Shown here in pieces: positions 6,842-20,819 of a stretch of 64,000 bases of DNA (position 1 is the first letter of the stretch; every line of letters begins with the position of its first letter). The DNA is from Pirellula sp. Its GTDB lineage: Bacteria; Planctomycetota; Planctomycetia; Pirellulales; PNKZ01. The notes under the pieces were generated by a model. The model had not been told where the DNA came from. It worked only from the letters and a program-made list of their open reading frames with translations, and did no database searches. The translations under genes were made by a program, and so were the position numbers. The stretch covers positions 744,001-808,000 of the forward strand of contig PNKZ01000001.1 in assembly GCA_013822735.1 (NCBI GenBank), in the 5' to 3' direction.

Positions 6842-6876
6842 TACTTTATTGAGCGTTGCTTTACTGAGCGTTACTT

Positions 6877-7902
6877 TTACTGCGCGTTGCTCTTCGAGCC
6901 GTACGGGGAGCCGCTGATCGGTTGGCCTTCGGGTAGGGGGCGGCCGGCGACCGTGTAGCCTTGTTCGTAGAGGTACTCGCGCAGCCGGCGGTACTCGGAG
7001 AAGCTGTCGTGGTAGGCCCAGAGCGTGATGGTCACGCGGCGCGGGTCGAGGTCGACGAGGGCCCGCTGGAAGTTGGAATCGCGGGCCATGGCGTCGGCGT
7101 AGGTTTCGCCGATTTGGTCGGAGGTGGGCAACAGCGTGAATTGCGTGGTGCGGATCATCGTGCCGCCGGGAGTGATGCTGTTTCCCATTTTCTGCGGCGG
7201 CACCGTCACGCGCTCGAGCGAATAGCGCATGCGGAAGTCGCCGATCGGTCCGACCGTTTCCGTGATCTCGTCGATTTCGTCGGCGCGGAACGATTTGCTC
7301 TGCATGTTGCGCTTGAGCTCTTCGACCAATTGATCGAGGGGCACTAAAGCGAGCCGGCCGCGGCGGAGTTGGAAGTGCGCTTCCTTGCCGTATACGGAGC
7401 GGCTGATCGGCGTGGGATAGGTTTTGATTTTGATGACGTCTTTTTGCGGCGAGTACACCAACGCTTCGATTTCCGCCTCGAGCGATTTGAGCTGCGACTT
7501 CTCCAGCAGCAGCGATTGCTGCACTTCGAAGGCGTCGCGCTCGCCGGCGGCGAGCCGCCCTTTGCGATCTTCGAGCGTTTTTTCGCGGGCGGAGACGAGC
7601 AGGGCGAGTTGACTGCGCTCTTCGTAACGCGAGGCGGAGAGCCCTTCGAATTCGGCGGCTTGGCGGACCAGACTGCGCGAATCGGCTTCCAAACTGCGGG
7701 CTTCGTCTTCCAGCGGCGCGAGGTCGATCTTCGGCGCGGCCGGCTCTTCGACGACGACTGGAAAGTCGGCGGCGTTCTTCACGCGCAGGCCGACGACCAT
7801 CACGAGGATGATGAGAATGCCGACCATGTTGGCGACGATATCGAGAAACGAATCGCTACCGAACGATTCGGTCGAGTCGACGGGTGGCGGACGTCGGGAC
7901 AT
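6877..7902 (-). CDS. ExbD/TolR-like stator protein with coiled coil
   Basis: 341 residues. A short cytoplasmic N terminus (SFGSDSFLDIVANM) leads into one transmembrane helix (about residues 22-44), as in ExbD/TolR/MotB proteins. A long Glu/Arg-rich coiled coil (about 60-150) and a periplasmic domain of ~180 residues follow. The LDIVANMVGILIIL helix carries the Asp expected near the start of the membrane segment for proton coupling. It is the third gene of a minus-strand operon after a MotA/ExbB gene and another ExbD-like gene, with 45 bases to the preceding one. Much longer than classical ExbD (~140 residues). Function of the complex unknown. Confidence 0.75.
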   Translation of the reverse strand: MSRRPPPVDSTESFGSDSFLDIVANMVGILIILVMVVGLRVKNAADFPVVVEEPAAPKIDLAPLEDEARSLEADSRSLVRQAAEFEGLSASRYEERSQLALLVSAREKTLEDRKGRLAAGERDAFEVQQSLLLEKSQLKSLEAEIEALVYSPQKDVIKIKTYPTPISRSVYGKEAHFQLRRGRLALVPLDQLVEELKRNMQSKSFRADEIDEITETVGPIGDFRMRYSLERVTVPPQKMGNSITPGGTMIRTTQFTLLPTSDQIGETYADAMARDSNFQRALVDLDPRRVTITLWAYHDSFSEYRRLREYLYEQGYTVAGRPLPEGQPISGSPYGSKSNAQ

Positions 7903-7947
7903 GGCGAAACCGGCTGTGCTGTGTGCGAAGGACGGAAGCGAACGGGT

Positions 7948-10248
7948 TTAGCGTTGCGTCGGCGCGGCGGGCGTGGCGAGTTGGATTTGCTTGCCGTTGA
8001 GTTCCAAACCGCTGTGGGCGAGGAGTTGCTTGAGTTCGTTGAACCGCGCGGCGCCGTCGGGGGCGACGTGCACCGAGAGGACCGGCTTCCAATACATGCC
8101 GCGGCCGGCGAGGCCCCAGGTCTTCACGTGGTCCCAAATTTGGGCGACGAGCGTATCGACCGCTTCTTCAGTTTGGCCGCTGAAGACGATTTGCTTATCG
8201 GGCAAGCCGCGATCGGAGAAGAGCGTGAGTTGGTCGCGCGAGACGTAGAGCTGGATCGGACGCGTGAGCGGCGTGGAACGGGTGTTCGCATCGGGGACGC
8301 CCCAGTTCTTGCCGCGCTTGTGGGCCATGCTCTCGACGTATTCGCCGGGGCCGGGAGGAACGTTGACCGAGAGACTCGGCGGCGATGCGGAAGGATCGCC
8401 GGATGCGGAAGCGCCGGCCGAGCCTCCTGCGCTGCCGCCGCTTGCGCCGGAGGAGGGCGTGCCGCCGAGGAACGAGGGTGGTGCGCCGCCGCCGGCCACC
8501 CCGCCTCCGGCATTGGCGACGCCGCTCGTGGCGGTGCCGCCGGTGTTCGAGCCGTTCTGGCCGTTGGGCGCGGCACCGTTGCCGGAGGAGCCGGTGCCTG
8601 CGACGGGACCATAGCCTTGTTGGCCGCCGCCCGATTGGCCTAGGCCTTGTTGAGCGGAGCCTGGTTGAGCGCCGTTCGCGCCGGAGCCGTTGCCGCCGCC
8701 GCCGGCCTTATCGAACGGGCCGGCCGGGTTGAGCGAGTTGGGATCGCCCATGCTTCCGGAACTTGATCCGCCCGGGCCGTTGCCTTGGCCATATGGACCG
8801 GCGCCGCCGGTGTTGGAAGCGTAGCGATCGCCGACGGTGCTCGGTGCGCCGCCCGCGGGACCGGTGCCGGTGCCATTGCCGGCGAGAGCGCCGGTGCCTT
8901 GCGCCGGATTTCCGAGCGCGGGGCCGCCGAGGGCGGGGCCACTGAGCGGCGCAGTGTTTCCGAGCGGTGCTGCGTCTCCGAGCGGCGCTGCGCCGGTCGG
9001 GTTGCCGCCGCCGGGAGCTCCGGGATAACCGCCGCCGTTGCCGTAGCCGCCCGGCGCGTTGGCTGGTGCGCTGCCCGAGCCGTAGCCGGCGCCGGCGAGG
9101 TTGCCGTAGCGGTCGCCGGTGGTTTCGGGCATCGGCTCGCGCGTCGACGAGTAGCCGGCGTCGGGAGGAACGAAGCGTTTGGGTTTACCGGCACGTCCGC
9201 TGCCCGACCCATCGCCGCCGTCGAAGCCGGCACCGTCGAAACCGCCCCCCGAGCCTTGATTCAAAGCGAAGGTCGGTGCGCCGCCGCCGCCGCGTTGTTC
9301 ACGCAAACGGGGAGCCGCGCGGGCCATGATGATTTGTCGTTGACGGGCTTCGTCGGCGGTCTTCGCAAGCATTTGTGCGAGCAGCGGATCGGCCGGCGGA
9401 AACTCCAGCGGCCAATCTTCGTTGATCAGTTCGTAGCCGAAGTCGCTGTCCCAACTCTGCATCGCCTCGCGAGCCGAATAATACGCGCCGATGCCGGAGG
9501 GGCGGACCAAGAGCAACGGATAAGGTTGCTCTCCTTCCGCGTAACGATTTTCGCGTGTGATCGTTTCGCTCACGAGCCGTACGCACGAGGCCAACGGATT
9601 CGAGGGGCCCATCGAGCCGGCGAAATCGGCAGGTAGAAACTTCGTACCCTCGGGCTGCAGCACTACGGCGTCGCCGCGGCATTCGATGTAGATGGGTCGG
9701 CGGCGCGTGCCGTTTTTGCCGTCGTACGGCACGACGGCGAAAGCTTGCGCCTTCTTGCCGGCGGCATTGGCTTGTTCGAGCTTGAGTTTCGCGTCGGCGA
9801 TTTTCGTGCGCAAGTCGGCGAGCTCGGCTTCGAGCTTGGCCTTCTCTTCGTCCGTGGTCGTGGAGCGCGTGGCGAGCAGCTTGTCGGCCTCGTTCAGGTC
9901 GTCGAGTTGCTTGCGCAGCCGCGCGGAGTGCTCTTCCAAATGGCCGAGCTGTTCGCGGAGCGTGCCGACGTCGGCGAGCGTTTTTTCGCGCGCGGCGGCG
10001 AGCTGCTTGATGCGCCATTGCAAGTCGTCGCGCTTGCGCTCGAGCTCGGCGTTGTCGACCTTCGAGCGGGCCGCTTCGGCGCGAGCCGCGGTTTGGGCCG
10101 CTTCGGCTTCGGCTTCCGCGGTCGCGCGGGCTTGTTGGGCGATGAGCATCAGCAGCAGGATCAGCGCTCCCATCGTGCAGAGGAGCACGGCGAGAAACGG
10201 GAAGAGCTGAACGCCTGCGCCGGCGCCGGCCTTCGGTCGCTTACTCAT
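7948..10248 (-). CDS. Long ExbD/MotB-like membrane protein with coiled coil and ~300-residue Gly/Ser/Asn-rich linker
   Basis: 766 residues. The ATG at 10248 overlaps the stop of the upstream MotA/ExbB gene (ATGA), which fixes the start and suggests coupled translation. The N terminus (PFLAVLLCTMGALILLLMLIAQQ region, residues 13-39) is a single membrane helix. Residues ~40-155 are a Glu/Arg/Ala coiled coil. A globular domain (~160-315) contains YIECRGDAVVLQPEG. Residues ~320-624 are low complexity, dominated by Gly, Ser, Ala, Asn and Pro, and a second folded domain (~625-766) ends the protein. The layout suggests a stator that spans the periplasm through a flexible tether. Function not known. 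Confidence 0.72.
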   Translation of the reverse strand: MSKRPKAGAGAGVQLFPFLAVLLCTMGALILLLMLIAQQARATAEAEAEAAQTAARAEAARSKVDNAELERKRDDLQWRIKQLAAAREKTLADVGTLREQLGHLEEHSARLRKQLDDLNEADKLLATRSTTTDEEKAKLEAELADLRTKIADAKLKLEQANAAGKKAQAFAVVPYDGKNGTRRRPIYIECRGDAVVLQPEGTKFLPADFAGSMGPSNPLASCVRLVSETITRENRYAEGEQPYPLLLVRPSGIGAYYSAREAMQSWDSDFGYELINEDWPLEFPPADPLLAQMLAKTADEARQRQIIMARAAPRLREQRGGGGAPTFALNQGSGGGFDGAGFDGGDGSGSGRAGKPKRFVPPDAGYSSTREPMPETTGDRYGNLAGAGYGSGSAPANAPGGYGNGGGYPGAPGGGNPTGAAPLGDAAPLGNTAPLSGPALGGPALGNPAQGTGALAGNGTGTGPAGGAPSTVGDRYASNTGGAGPYGQGNGPGGSSSGSMGDPNSLNPAGPFDKAGGGGNGSGANGAQPGSAQQGLGQSGGGQQGYGPVAGTGSSGNGAAPNGQNGSNTGGTATSGVANAGGGVAGGGAPPSFLGGTPSSGASGGSAGGSAGASASGDPSASPPSLSVNVPPGPGEYVESMAHKRGKNWGVPDANTRSTPLTRPIQLYVSRDQLTLFSDRGLPDKQIVFSGQTEEAVDTLVAQIWDHVKTWGLAGRGMYWKPVLSVHVAPDGAARFNELKQLLAHSGLELNGKQIQLATPAAPTQR

Positions 10249-11579
10249 GCCGCCTTTCCTCGAACGACGCCGGTGACGCCGATGTGCGTGCTCGGGTGCG
10301 TGAGCGTTTCGAGCCGCGAATTGAGCAGGCTCACGCCCGACGTGAGGTTGAGCAGCGTTTCTTGCAACAGTTGCGTCGAAGCGAGCGCCGCGACGTTCGT
10401 CGTGAGCGCTTCTTCCAGACGTTTCACTTGTTCGGTGGCATCGACGACGCGGCTCAGCACTTCGCCCGTACGACGCAATTCGAGCTGCTGCGTGGCGTTG
10501 CTCGCCGCGCACGCTTCCAAAGCTTGTTGCACTTGCAGCCAATGCTTCCGGTTTTGTTCGGCGGCCCCTTCTTCGCTCGCGAGCAGATGCTTGCGGTGTT
10601 CGGCCATGCTGCGCGAGAGGGCCTTGGTGAGGCCTTCTTCCAAGTGGTCGGCGCCGCCGTTGGCCACGGCTTCCCAGCGCCCTTGCGCGACGTCGATCGT
10701 TTCTTTCCAAAGATCGACCTGGCGTTCGACGAGCCGTTCGACGCTCGTCACCACGGCTTCTCCCATGCGGCGAATGCCGTGGAGTTGCGGATCGTGATCG
10801 GCGCCCAGCGAGGGGAACCGCGCGGATAGGAGCAGCAGCGATTGCTCATCGACCATGCTGAGGAGCCGCGCTTCTTGCTTGTCGACGAAGAACTGCCCGA
10901 ACATCAGCACCATCGAGAGGGCGAGAGCCAGGGCCGTGGTGTCGAACGCCACGCCGAGGCCTGAAGTGACGACGGGCAGCGAGCTTTCCATTTGTTTGGC
11001 GTCCAGGCCGGCGATGGCCATCGTGATGCCGATGACCGTGCCGAGGAAGCCCATGATCGGAATGGCCCAAATGATGATGCGGACCATGGCATGCGAGGCG
11101 TGCGCGAGTCCGGCGTCGGCGTCGGAGAGGAAGCGGAGATCGTCTTCCAAGCCGTCGGCCGAGCCTTTGCGGCAGACTCCCTCGAGGGCGTTGCGCAAAC
11201 GCGTCGGGAGATAGGTGCGTTGTTCGGGTTCGGGAAGTTCGCCAAGTTTGCCGAGCATCGAGCGAGCTTCCGCTTCGGCGTCGCCGAGCGGGAAGGTTTG
11301 ATCGAAGATCGCTTTCTTCAGCTTCGAACGTTGCTCGGTGAGCTCGCCGGCCTTGAGAATGATTTGCGCCAGCGCGATGAAGAACATGATCGTTTCGACG
11401 TACTCGACCCAGTGGCCGGCGAAGTAGCGGCGAAAGAAATCTTTTCCCAGGAGATTCGAGAGGAGATTTGATTCCAGAGCGCCGGTTTCAATGAGCGCGA
11501 AGAAGCCGAGCGAGGCGAGCGAGCCCCACATGATCGACGATTGCATGAAGGCGGCGGCAAAGCGTTTAAAGCGGCTCAC
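10245..11579 (-). CDS. MotA/TolQ/ExbB proton-channel family protein with long coiled-coil tail
   Basis: 444 residues, first gene of the minus-strand operon 11579-6877. Predicted membrane helices lie near residues 14-32, 59-78, ~170-195 (with the family hallmark GFLGTVIGITMAIAGL) and ~215-240. Residues ~245-444 form an extended, mostly helical cytoplasmic tail rich in Glu, Gln and Leu. MotA/ExbB proteins form the pentameric channel around two ExbD/MotB stators, and two such stators follow directly. The tail is longer than in ExbB or TolQ and recalls ZorA-like proteins, but no Zorya partner genes are present. Likely powers some envelope process. Confidence 0.85.
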   Translation of the reverse strand: MSRFKRFAAAFMQSSIMWGSLASLGFFALIETGALESNLLSNLLGKDFFRRYFAGHWVEYVETIMFFIALAQIILKAGELTEQRSKLKKAIFDQTFPLGDAEAEARSMLGKLGELPEPEQRTYLPTRLRNALEGVCRKGSADGLEDDLRFLSDADAGLAHASHAMVRIIIWAIPIMGFLGTVIGITMAIAGLDAKQMESSLPVVTSGLGVAFDTTALALALSMVLMFGQFFVDKQEARLLSMVDEQSLLLLSARFPSLGADHDPQLHGIRRMGEAVVTSVERLVERQVDLWKETIDVAQGRWEAVANGGADHLEEGLTKALSRSMAEHRKHLLASEEGAAEQNRKHWLQVQQALEACAASNATQQLELRRTGEVLSRVVDATEQVKRLEEALTTNVAALASTQLLQETLLNLTSGVSLLNSRLETLTHPSTHIGVTGVVRGKAA

Positions 11580-19906: not shown

Positions 19907-19997
19907 AAACACGAAGAACGAAATGTGCGGGCGGCAAGATGCCGCCGAGCGCCGCGAGCATGTTTCGCGGCGTCGGGTGTTCGAAAGGAATCGAACG

Positions 19998-20819
19998 ATG
20001 CAGACAAGAATCCATGCCGCAATAATCGTCGCGACGCTCTGCGTCGCGCCTCCGCTTCTCAGCGGCTGCGGCTATGTGCCGAAAACGCAGTTCAACGCGT
20101 GCGAATCGCAAGCCCGTATTTTGAGCGAGCAGAGCAAAGCGCAGTTGGCCGAGATCGCAAATCTCAAGAGTCACTCCAAGAAGCTTGAAGACGATCTCCT
20201 CAAGGCCGAGAAGGAACTCGCGGCGGCGCAGCGCGGCACCGACGCCGATCGCAAACGACTCGCCAATTTGCAAGTCGAACGCGAGAAGGTCCAAGATCAA
20301 GTGAAGGGCTTGGTTCGCGGCGCGACGCTCACCGGCATCGTTCCCGTGCGCGACGACGAAATCGAACGGCTCATGAAGCAGTTTCCGTTGTTGCGTTTCG
20401 ATGCCGCGACCGGCGCCTACAAGCTCGACGCCGAGCTGGCGTTTCAAGGGGACGAAGTACGGATCACGCCGGAGTCGCAAAAGCTGCTCAACGAATTTGC
20501 CGCCTTGTTTGCGGAGCCGGGCACGCGCGATCTACGCGTCTTGGTCGTGGGGCGCACCCCGCCGGCGGAGGCTGCCGAAGTTCGCGGCGCGGAACATCGC
20601 CTCGGCGCGGAACGGGCTCTGGCCGTGGCCGACTACCTGCGTAAGGTGGGCTTGCGCGGCGAACAGATCGGCGTCAGCGGGCTCGGCGCGCAGGCCGACC
20701 CCGCGGGCAAGACCCCGCCTCCGGCGGCTGCCGGCAAACCGCGCCGGGTCGACATCTTCGTGATGGGGAAGAAGACCCCGATCGTCGGTTGGGACGATCT
20801 CTCGACGGGCCGCTTTTAG
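19998..20819 (+). CDS. OmpA-like lipoprotein with coiled coil
   Basis: 273 residues. The ATG at 19998 follows an AAAGGA ribosome-binding site and begins a lipoprotein signal peptide ending in LLSGC (lipobox, acylated Cys). Residues ~35-110 form a Lys/Glu/Leu coiled coil, and the C-terminal ~120 residues resemble the OmpA/Pal peptidoglycan-binding domain (RVLVVGRTPP, RLGAERALAVADYLRK, ISVSGLGA-like segment, KPRRVDIFV). Such proteins tie the outer membrane to the cell wall. Located 91 bases after the HTH/membrane gene. Confidence 0.82.
   Translation: MQTRIHAAIIVATLCVAPPLLSGCGYVPKTQFNACESQARILSEQSKAQLAEIANLKSHSKKLEDDLLKAEKELAAAQRGTDADRKRLANLQVEREKVQDQVKGLVRGATLTGIVPVRDDEIERLMKQFPLLRFDAATGAYKLDAELAFQGDEVRITPESQKLLNEFAALFAEPGTRDLRVLVVGRTPPAEAAEVRGAEHRLGAERALAVADYLRKVGLRGEQIGVSGLGAQADPAGKTPPPAAAGKPRRVDIFVMGKKTPIVGWDDLSTGRF

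Follow-up and report, generated by a model that had tools for sequence, protein, structure and literature searches.

What kind of machine is encoded when one channel-protein gene is followed by two unlike stator-like genes? This question is raised by a three-gene operon, here called A, B and C, at positions 6877-11579 of a 64,000-nucleotide stretch of a Pirellula sp. genome (assembly GCA_013822735.1, contig PNKZ01000001.1, positions 744,001 to 808,000; hereafter the window, to which coordinates refer unless another locus is named). We propose that A, B and C form an ion-driven motor, in which B and C would make up a heteromeric stator with one ion site and B would act as a built-in transducer. 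We consider the chances for and against this proposal to be evenly balanced. Judged from its sequences, the triad is a real and conserved relative of ion-driven motors, and its core is shared beyond the planctomycetes.

The three genes are co-directional on the minus strand in the order A-B-C. Gene A (11579..10245, 444 residues) starts with GTG, with GGAGGA 8 bases upstream. The ATG of B (10248..7948, 766 residues) overlaps the TGA of A in the sequence ATGA, and 45 bases separate B from C (7902..6877, 341 residues). These gene calls and sizes agree with a preliminary description of the locus, which had reported a three-gene operon with an ATGA overlap and two stator-like proteins of 341 and 766 residues. 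Because 38 other B proteins align with the window B on both flanks of the tether described below, and because the ATGA overlap of A and B occurs in 55/58 planctomycete loci, the operon is not a product of chance or a frame artefact. A scan for promoters and terminators found none above shuffled controls.

In ExbD, TolR and their relatives, one Asp in the stator helix carries the ion. The E. coli helices of the ExbD/TolR type read NIVPLLDVLL and NVTPFIDVML; C reads SDSFLDIV and has the Asp, whereas B reads LFPFLAVL. Each of the two window proteins has a single hydrophobic stretch by hydropathy, at residues 18-36 of B and 19-37 of C. The membrane helix of B (residues 15-37, LFPFLAVLLCTMGALI..., 10138..10206) has its Ala20 codon at 10191-10189, and that of C (residues 19-37, FLDIVANMVGILIILVMVV, 7792..7848) has its Asp21 codon at 7842-7840; hhalign of B against C placed Ala20 opposite Asp21 (prob. 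93). Ala20 was present in 39/39 planctomycete B rows. With a search pattern that fixed FPFL and left the next residue free, this residue was Ala in 60, Ser in 19, Thr in one and Asp in none of 80 B proteins. The proteins with Ser include those of loci L115, L116, L117 and L118 and two cyanobacterial B, the Thr belongs to L114, and L028 has Ala. Although the pattern used to find C required the Asp, every locus with sequence well past B had such a C; the Asp was found in 35/35 and 11/11 aligned rows, and also in L114, L115, L116, L117, L118 and both cyanobacterial C. In B, residues L15, F16, P17, F18, L19, L22, C24, G27 and L29 were invariant in 39 planctomycete rows and 12 short rows. That this helix is conserved without the acid suggests that it occupies a tight and well-defined position; the simplest would be next to C in the interior of the wheel that A would form. 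The asymmetry between one stator with an ion site and one that is acid-less seems to be the main point that goes beyond the preliminary description.

Gene A encodes a MotA/TolQ/ExbB-type channel protein, which MotA_ExbB (PF01618) matched with 38.7 bits against a Pfam cut-off of 22.9. Its hydrophobic stretches lie at about residues 12-30, 57-75, 161-190 and 203-232 by hydropathy. The core with the third and fourth transmembrane segments (residues 160-234, 10878..11102) carries WAIPxxGFxGTVxGI and AFDTT, conserved among the aligned A proteins, and the channel threonines T181 and T214/T215, together with D213, were kept in 37/37 of them. Behind the last membrane segment (214-232 by hydropathy) follows the long tail of ~210 residues (235-444, 10248..10877), which a ZorA profile match enters; the channel protein with a ~200-residue tail reported previously was recovered. 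From MotA topology, the tail would be cytoplasmic. Given the PF01618 match over the cut-off and the Asp in C, A is very probably part of an energised system. We also noted that Asp213 of A (10941-10943) stands two residues ahead of the conserved Thr215 in 37/37 aligned A proteins; inspection by eye shows Ile at this position in E. coli TolQ and Leu in ExbB. The GTG start of A (11577-11579) recurs in 57/61 planctomycete loci (L009-L069), although the start picker preferred ATG.

An AlphaFold2 model of B (mean predicted local distance difference test score, pLDDT, 63.0) consists of a membrane-plus-stalk helix, a domain, a tether and another domain. The long helical stalk (residues 38-164, 9757..10137) falls within modelled helices 16-127 and 133-164. 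The first ExbD/TolR-like domain covers residues 180-283 (9400..9711) and the second residues 658-757 (7978..8277), and the order of strands and helices is similar in both. Between these folded domains lies the disordered tether (residues 320-635, 8344..9291), with pLDDT <50 except at three single residues; its 316 residues include 101 Gly, 44 Ala, 36 Pro, 34 Ser and 20 Asn. The length and place of the tether are as described before (~300 residues between globular domains), but its composition is rich in Gly, Ala, Pro and Ser rather than in Gly, Ser and Asn. In 39 planctomycete B proteins the inter-domain stretch spans 177-373 residues (median 299), with a median of 28% Gly. The model of C (mean pLDDT 80.3) has a membrane helix, a 90-residue helical stalk (residues 61-150, 7453..7722) and a single domain in which a sheet is inserted among strands and helices (residues 173-332, 6907..7386), which would be periplasmic. 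Neither window protein had a match above cut-off in Pfam, NCBIfam or PADLOC; Pfam lists coiled-coil families for B, and DUF6684 scored 18 against 24 bits at residues 11-47 of C. Short B proteins gave only mixed, weak matches; the matches of the B and C profiles to PDB sequences look coiled-coil-like and due to chance (best E 0.011 for B and 0.031 for C), and phage records contained no relative of C. The C-terminal end of C (PIxGSxxGSKSxxQ, 6880-6921) ranks among the best-conserved parts of the protein across 35 planctomycete C, as though it served as a docking tail. About three 15-base tandem copies run across the end of C (6844-6891), which repeats its final codons and stop codon beyond the stop.

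Under the proposal made above, A-B-C would be a single, self-contained ion-driven motor of the inner membrane and a member of the MotA/TolQ/ExbB superfamily. A would form the wheel, probably pentameric by homology, with a bundled cytoplasmic tail. The wheel would be filled by two helices from different genes, C with its putative ion-binding Asp21 and B with Ala, Ser or Thr. Because these helices would come from two genes and only C has the Asp, the axle would be a B-C heterodimer, asymmetric by construction, with ions passing at a single site. The helical stalks of B and C would reach into the periplasm, and in planctomycetes the tether and second ExbD-like domain of B could transmit force, or capture a partner, well away from the membrane. 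With these parts B would be stator and force transducer in one, performing over a distance the job that TonB or TolA has in other systems, and the motor as a whole would presumably serve a housekeeping function of the envelope.

How widely is this arrangement conserved? A scan of bacterial and archaeal genomes with A yielded 127 relatives, of which we used the best 80, found in planctomycetes, verrucomicrobia and one genome recorded as 'bacterium'. Together with the window copy these make 81 loci, some of which are near-identical or come from one metagenome-assembled genome, so that not all are independent. A, B and C were found in 50 loci, A and B in 22, and A alone in nine. The 31 incomplete loci end at contig edges, <=2,201 bases past A, and one of the nine with A alone, L028, proved to hold B. 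All 50 complete loci, 38 from planctomycetes and 12 from verrucomicrobia, have the genes in the order A-B-C on one strand. In verrucomicrobial loci B starts 21-80 bases past A (n=13); their B is short (265-277 residues) and their C longer (363-570 residues where complete).

The preliminary description had proposed a survey of conservation in Planctomycetota, and there the operon proved to be conserved. A profile of B matched 45/392 Planctomycetota genomes: its own, 11/11 listed of the order, 26/28 listed of the class and 7/352 others. The seven matches outside the class are short frames of 243-338 residues that lack the tether. The C profile matched 51/392 genomes: its own, 11 of the order, 27/28 of the class and 12 others, several of them weakly. 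G361, a genome that the C profile matched and the B profile did not, nevertheless has a B, whose key residue is Thr. A search of the whole class with the C profile gave matches in 160/198 genomes: 49 belong to the order (the window's own, one from its family and 47 more) and 111 to other parts of the class. Many of these matches align only from the stalk onward, so that the Asp is unread there. None of the 20 listed misses belongs to the order, and 16 of them fall in one family; 18 further misses are unlisted. B and C matches were adjacent in 36/38 genomes having both; in the two exceptions they lie on different contigs, and in one of these C is a short-type copy. In Verrucomicrobiota, a verrucomicrobial B profile matched 12/240 genomes, nine strongly and three marginally. 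Across the phyla, hhalign gave 98.5 for B with verrucomicrobial B and 98.3, over 56 columns, for C with verrucomicrobial C. Phyla beyond these two were covered through plasmids only.

When the first part of B served as tblastn query against plasmids, two cyanobacterial plasmids were identified, both with A-B-C in the same order: a minimal triad in Microcystis (L108:3423-6023) and another in Anabaena (L109:3434-6013). The cyanobacterial B has 153 residues, comprising a membrane helix and one domain. By profile it matched planctomycete B over the domain only (probability 98.8, E 1.3e-16), and cyanobacterial C matched planctomycete C with a probability of 96.6. This minimal B may represent the core of the protein, to which stalk, tether and second domain would be additions. 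Contrary to the earlier suggestion, the core triad is not planctomycete-specific, since it also occurs in Verrucomicrobiota and on these two plasmids; as sampled, that label holds for the tether form. The neighbours of the Microcystis triad are an Snf2 helicase (C3a139, 218.7 bits; ZorD1 50 bits) and a DUF559 nuclease-like gene, and that of the Anabaena triad is a CARF-HEPN gene (844.8 bits). The shared motor core may possibly be used in defence there, and given these defence-like surroundings the same core may serve different ends. We also observed a second triad type with a short B in planctomycete genomes (L115:2111-5858, L116:4221-7889, L117:4552-6021, L118:2945-6985). Short-B triads coexist with the tether type in G333 and G377, and A reads AFNTT instead of AFDTT in L115 and L116.

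Several results weigh against the proposed motor. VIA-align scored B domain 180-283 at Z 7.3 against ExbD 8pek (86 aligned, 3.8 A) and Z 7.2 against TolR 5by4 (90 aligned, 6.0 A), and domain 658-757 at Z 6.4 against ExbD 8p9r (70 aligned, 2.6 A); the range of Z 6.4-7.3 is a level where common arrangements also score. Ribosomal S11, Pelota and YqgF match the second domain equally well or better, and the best Foldseek match of B was ribosomal S11 (E 8.7e-04). The C domain found no convincing fold match in the PDB (Foldseek best E 0.034, VIA-align best Z 5.8), in searches whose displayed rows lacked ExbD and TolR and are uninformative on them either way. A hidden Markov model of ten ExbD/TolR membrane helices scored neither B nor C above shuffled controls (medians 0.0 for B and -1.2 for C; shuffle 95th percentiles 0.6 and 2.4). 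Pfam ExbD (PF02472) did not match window B or C at E<=1, matched at most 1/12 short B, and reached 17.8 bits against a cut-off of 25.4 on the cyanobacterial B P0007 (E 0.0036, residues 8-118). Hhalign of B and of cyanobacterial B and C against the eight ExbD of this genome gave weak or nil scores, the best being E 0.049 for a cyanobacterial B, with Ser opposite Asp by eye. In addition, 38/198 class genomes had no C match, and the triad is therefore dispensable there. It is also possible that B and C form two homodimers (B-B and C-C) in place of a heterodimer.

The weak ExbD scores in themselves exclude little, because ExbD and TolR are typically below detection thresholds, according to the consulted part of a stator survey (PMC12505986). 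A link to ExbD is favoured by the sub-threshold Pfam match of P0007 and by the modest fold matches of the B domains to ExbD and TolR. That B and C work like an ExbD/TolR stator is suggested by helix position, gene order and the adjacent wheel gene. Descent of B and C from ExbD is a separate matter; it was unsupported by the helix-profile and profile-profile tests and is unproven, and we use 'ExbD-like' for topology only.

Among the other explanations, the one that survives best is an A5C2 motor with a C homodimer, in which B is a separate tethered transducer docked outside the wheel like TonB or TolA. The loss of Asp in B would then follow from its different job, and B does have the layout of a transducer, with a helix, a stalk, a long disordered linker and a distal domain, while the Asp is kept in each aligned C. 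However, the helix of B aligns with that of C, and the membrane segment of B holds no His. The folded domains of B resemble ExbD/TolR, albeit at modest Z, and the minimal cyanobacterial B, too short for stalk, tether and distal domain, nevertheless has the same helix. We regard this arrangement as rather unlikely.

We also considered an anti-phage system of the Zorya kind, with a ZorA-like motor, a split ZorB and signalling via the tail of A. ZorA (8qyk, E 8e-07) was the nearest solved relative of A, with a match that enters the tail, against E 0.0099 for ExbB, and the cyanobacterial plasmid triads stand beside Snf2 helicase and CARF-HEPN genes. However, defence systems are typically patchy in distribution, unlike a triad detected in 160/198 class genomes. 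The NCBIfam ZorA2 model scored 18.2 bits on A against a cut-off of 700, and no PADLOC ZorB model matched window B or C at E<=1, although P0007 matched ZorB1 with E 0.0046. Moreover, of the two genes that flank the window operon, one encodes a radical SAM protein and the other a planctomycete cytochrome. A Zorya-kind system thus appears improbable. It is equally hard to credit an ordinary ExbB-ExbD-ExbD or TolQ-TolR-TolR set, or the published force-transducer cluster discussed below, with fast-evolving stators: pairs or triples of ExbD exist in this genome (L099, L102) and poor detection would be expected of such stators (PMC12505986, consulted part), but no Pfam TPR or vWA domain was found in ten genes near triads (three in the window, seven of L014, L047 and L077), the eight ExbD of this genome all carry Asp (with a search pattern that required D or N), and in a core tree a branch with 100/100 support separates 23 triad A from TolQ, ExbB and three ExbB encoded in this genome, under a long-branch warning from the tool and with ZorA and MotA left outside and four other genome loci dropped by the trimming pattern.

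All-against-all comparison of the open reading frames around the loci, with single linkage, gave a divergent HTH_17 family in 53 loci and a ResB-like family in 42. The HTH_17 gene encodes ~420 residues, for example at L014:7834-9096, and stands divergently near the triad; it was not among the tested window flanks. We considered HTH_17 and ResB-like genes as motor parts and took them as neighbours, given that the window flanks are other genes. An open reading frame with an OmpA domain (47.4 bits) lies at 19923-20819, about 8 kb upstream of the operon.

In models of 5:2 motors, the two stator helices are equivalent, and ions are loaded alternately by their two acids. If the one-site heteromeric motor proposed here is real, then a natural one-acid motor would test whether both ion sites are needed, and the stepping of a heterodimer motor would differ from that of known 5:2 motors. 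For planctomycetes, the triad is a common and well-defined candidate for energising the envelope, and one that is open to genetic tests. Their periplasm is enlarged, and macromolecules are taken up into it in a manner sensitive to carbonyl cyanide m-chlorophenylhydrazone (CCCP), by no known machine: dextran uptake was seen in 23% of 1,065 Gemmata cells and in none of 816 with CCCP (PMC5394234). We hypothesize that the triad may power this uptake. More broadly, the triad could represent a wide class of ion motors with an obligate heterodimer axle of one live and one dead stator and a single ion-binding site, shared through descent or transfer by planctomycetes, verrucomicrobia and cyanobacteria. 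In planctomycetes the motor would drive a transducer that belongs to the dead stator and could span the enlarged periplasm, and would perhaps power the CCCP-sensitive macromolecule uptake; this extension is tentative, and we think it somewhat doubtful.

Finally, we compared the triad with known systems. We recognized no paper on it in the open-access literature, a search that left subscription journals mostly uncovered. The preliminary description had placed the operon far from TonB, Tol and flagellar types, and this is borne out, as no such set adjoins it. TolB_N (PF04052) was absent from the genome in a search that recovers the E. coli control; three TonB_C genes were found in the genome, none of them inside the window; and B and C had no OmpA-like domain (PF00691) at E<=1, the MotB-type genes of the genome lying elsewhere. 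The genome has eight MotA_ExbB genes, of which two are in MotAB-type pairs and five are ExbB with ExbD nearby, all separate from the eighth, which is A. Another ExbB locus (L103:2856-8043) has a TPR-like gene (by eye) before it and an Asp-bearing ExbD and a 631-residue membrane protein after it, and is perhaps the published cluster of the Planctomycetes-Verrucomicrobia-Chlamydiae (PVC) group. That cluster comprises TPR, tolQ, a pair of unlike tolR, and vWA genes (PMC12204202, consulted part). It resembles the triad in its PVC host group, its one wheel gene, its unlike tolR-like pair and its proposed force transduction, but the consulted part of its description does not mention the loss of Asp in one partner.

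ZorAB is similar in that A is closest to ZorA among solved structures and both continue past the MotA core in a long C-terminal tail; within a 5:2 complex, the tails of ZorA come together as a cytoplasmic rod (PMC11890865, consulted part). However, ZorAB has one ZorB against two stator genes here, neither of which has an OmpA-like domain at E<=1, and the ZorA of 8qyk reads AFLGS where A reads AFDTT. Judged by their Pfam names, neither of the two genes flanking the triad belongs to Zorya, and the triad occurs commonly in its class. AglRQS, the gliding motor of Myxococcus, likewise has one MotA-type gene and two ExbD/TolR-type genes side by side. Pfam ExbD recognizes both AglQ and AglS (PMC3169522, consulted part), both are predicted to hold Asp, and whether they form a heterodimer is left open (PMC9389320, consulted part). 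Here, by contrast, no B that was read has the Asp, and window B and C are without Pfam ExbD. ExbBD/TonB and TolQR/TolA share with the triad the wheel superfamily and, as far as the modest fold scores go, the ExbD/TolR-like topology of the B domains. Unlike these systems, the operon has no adjoining TonB, its genome has no TolB, and its stators score below the Pfam ExbD threshold; one stator is Asp-less, and the tether lies inside the stator itself.

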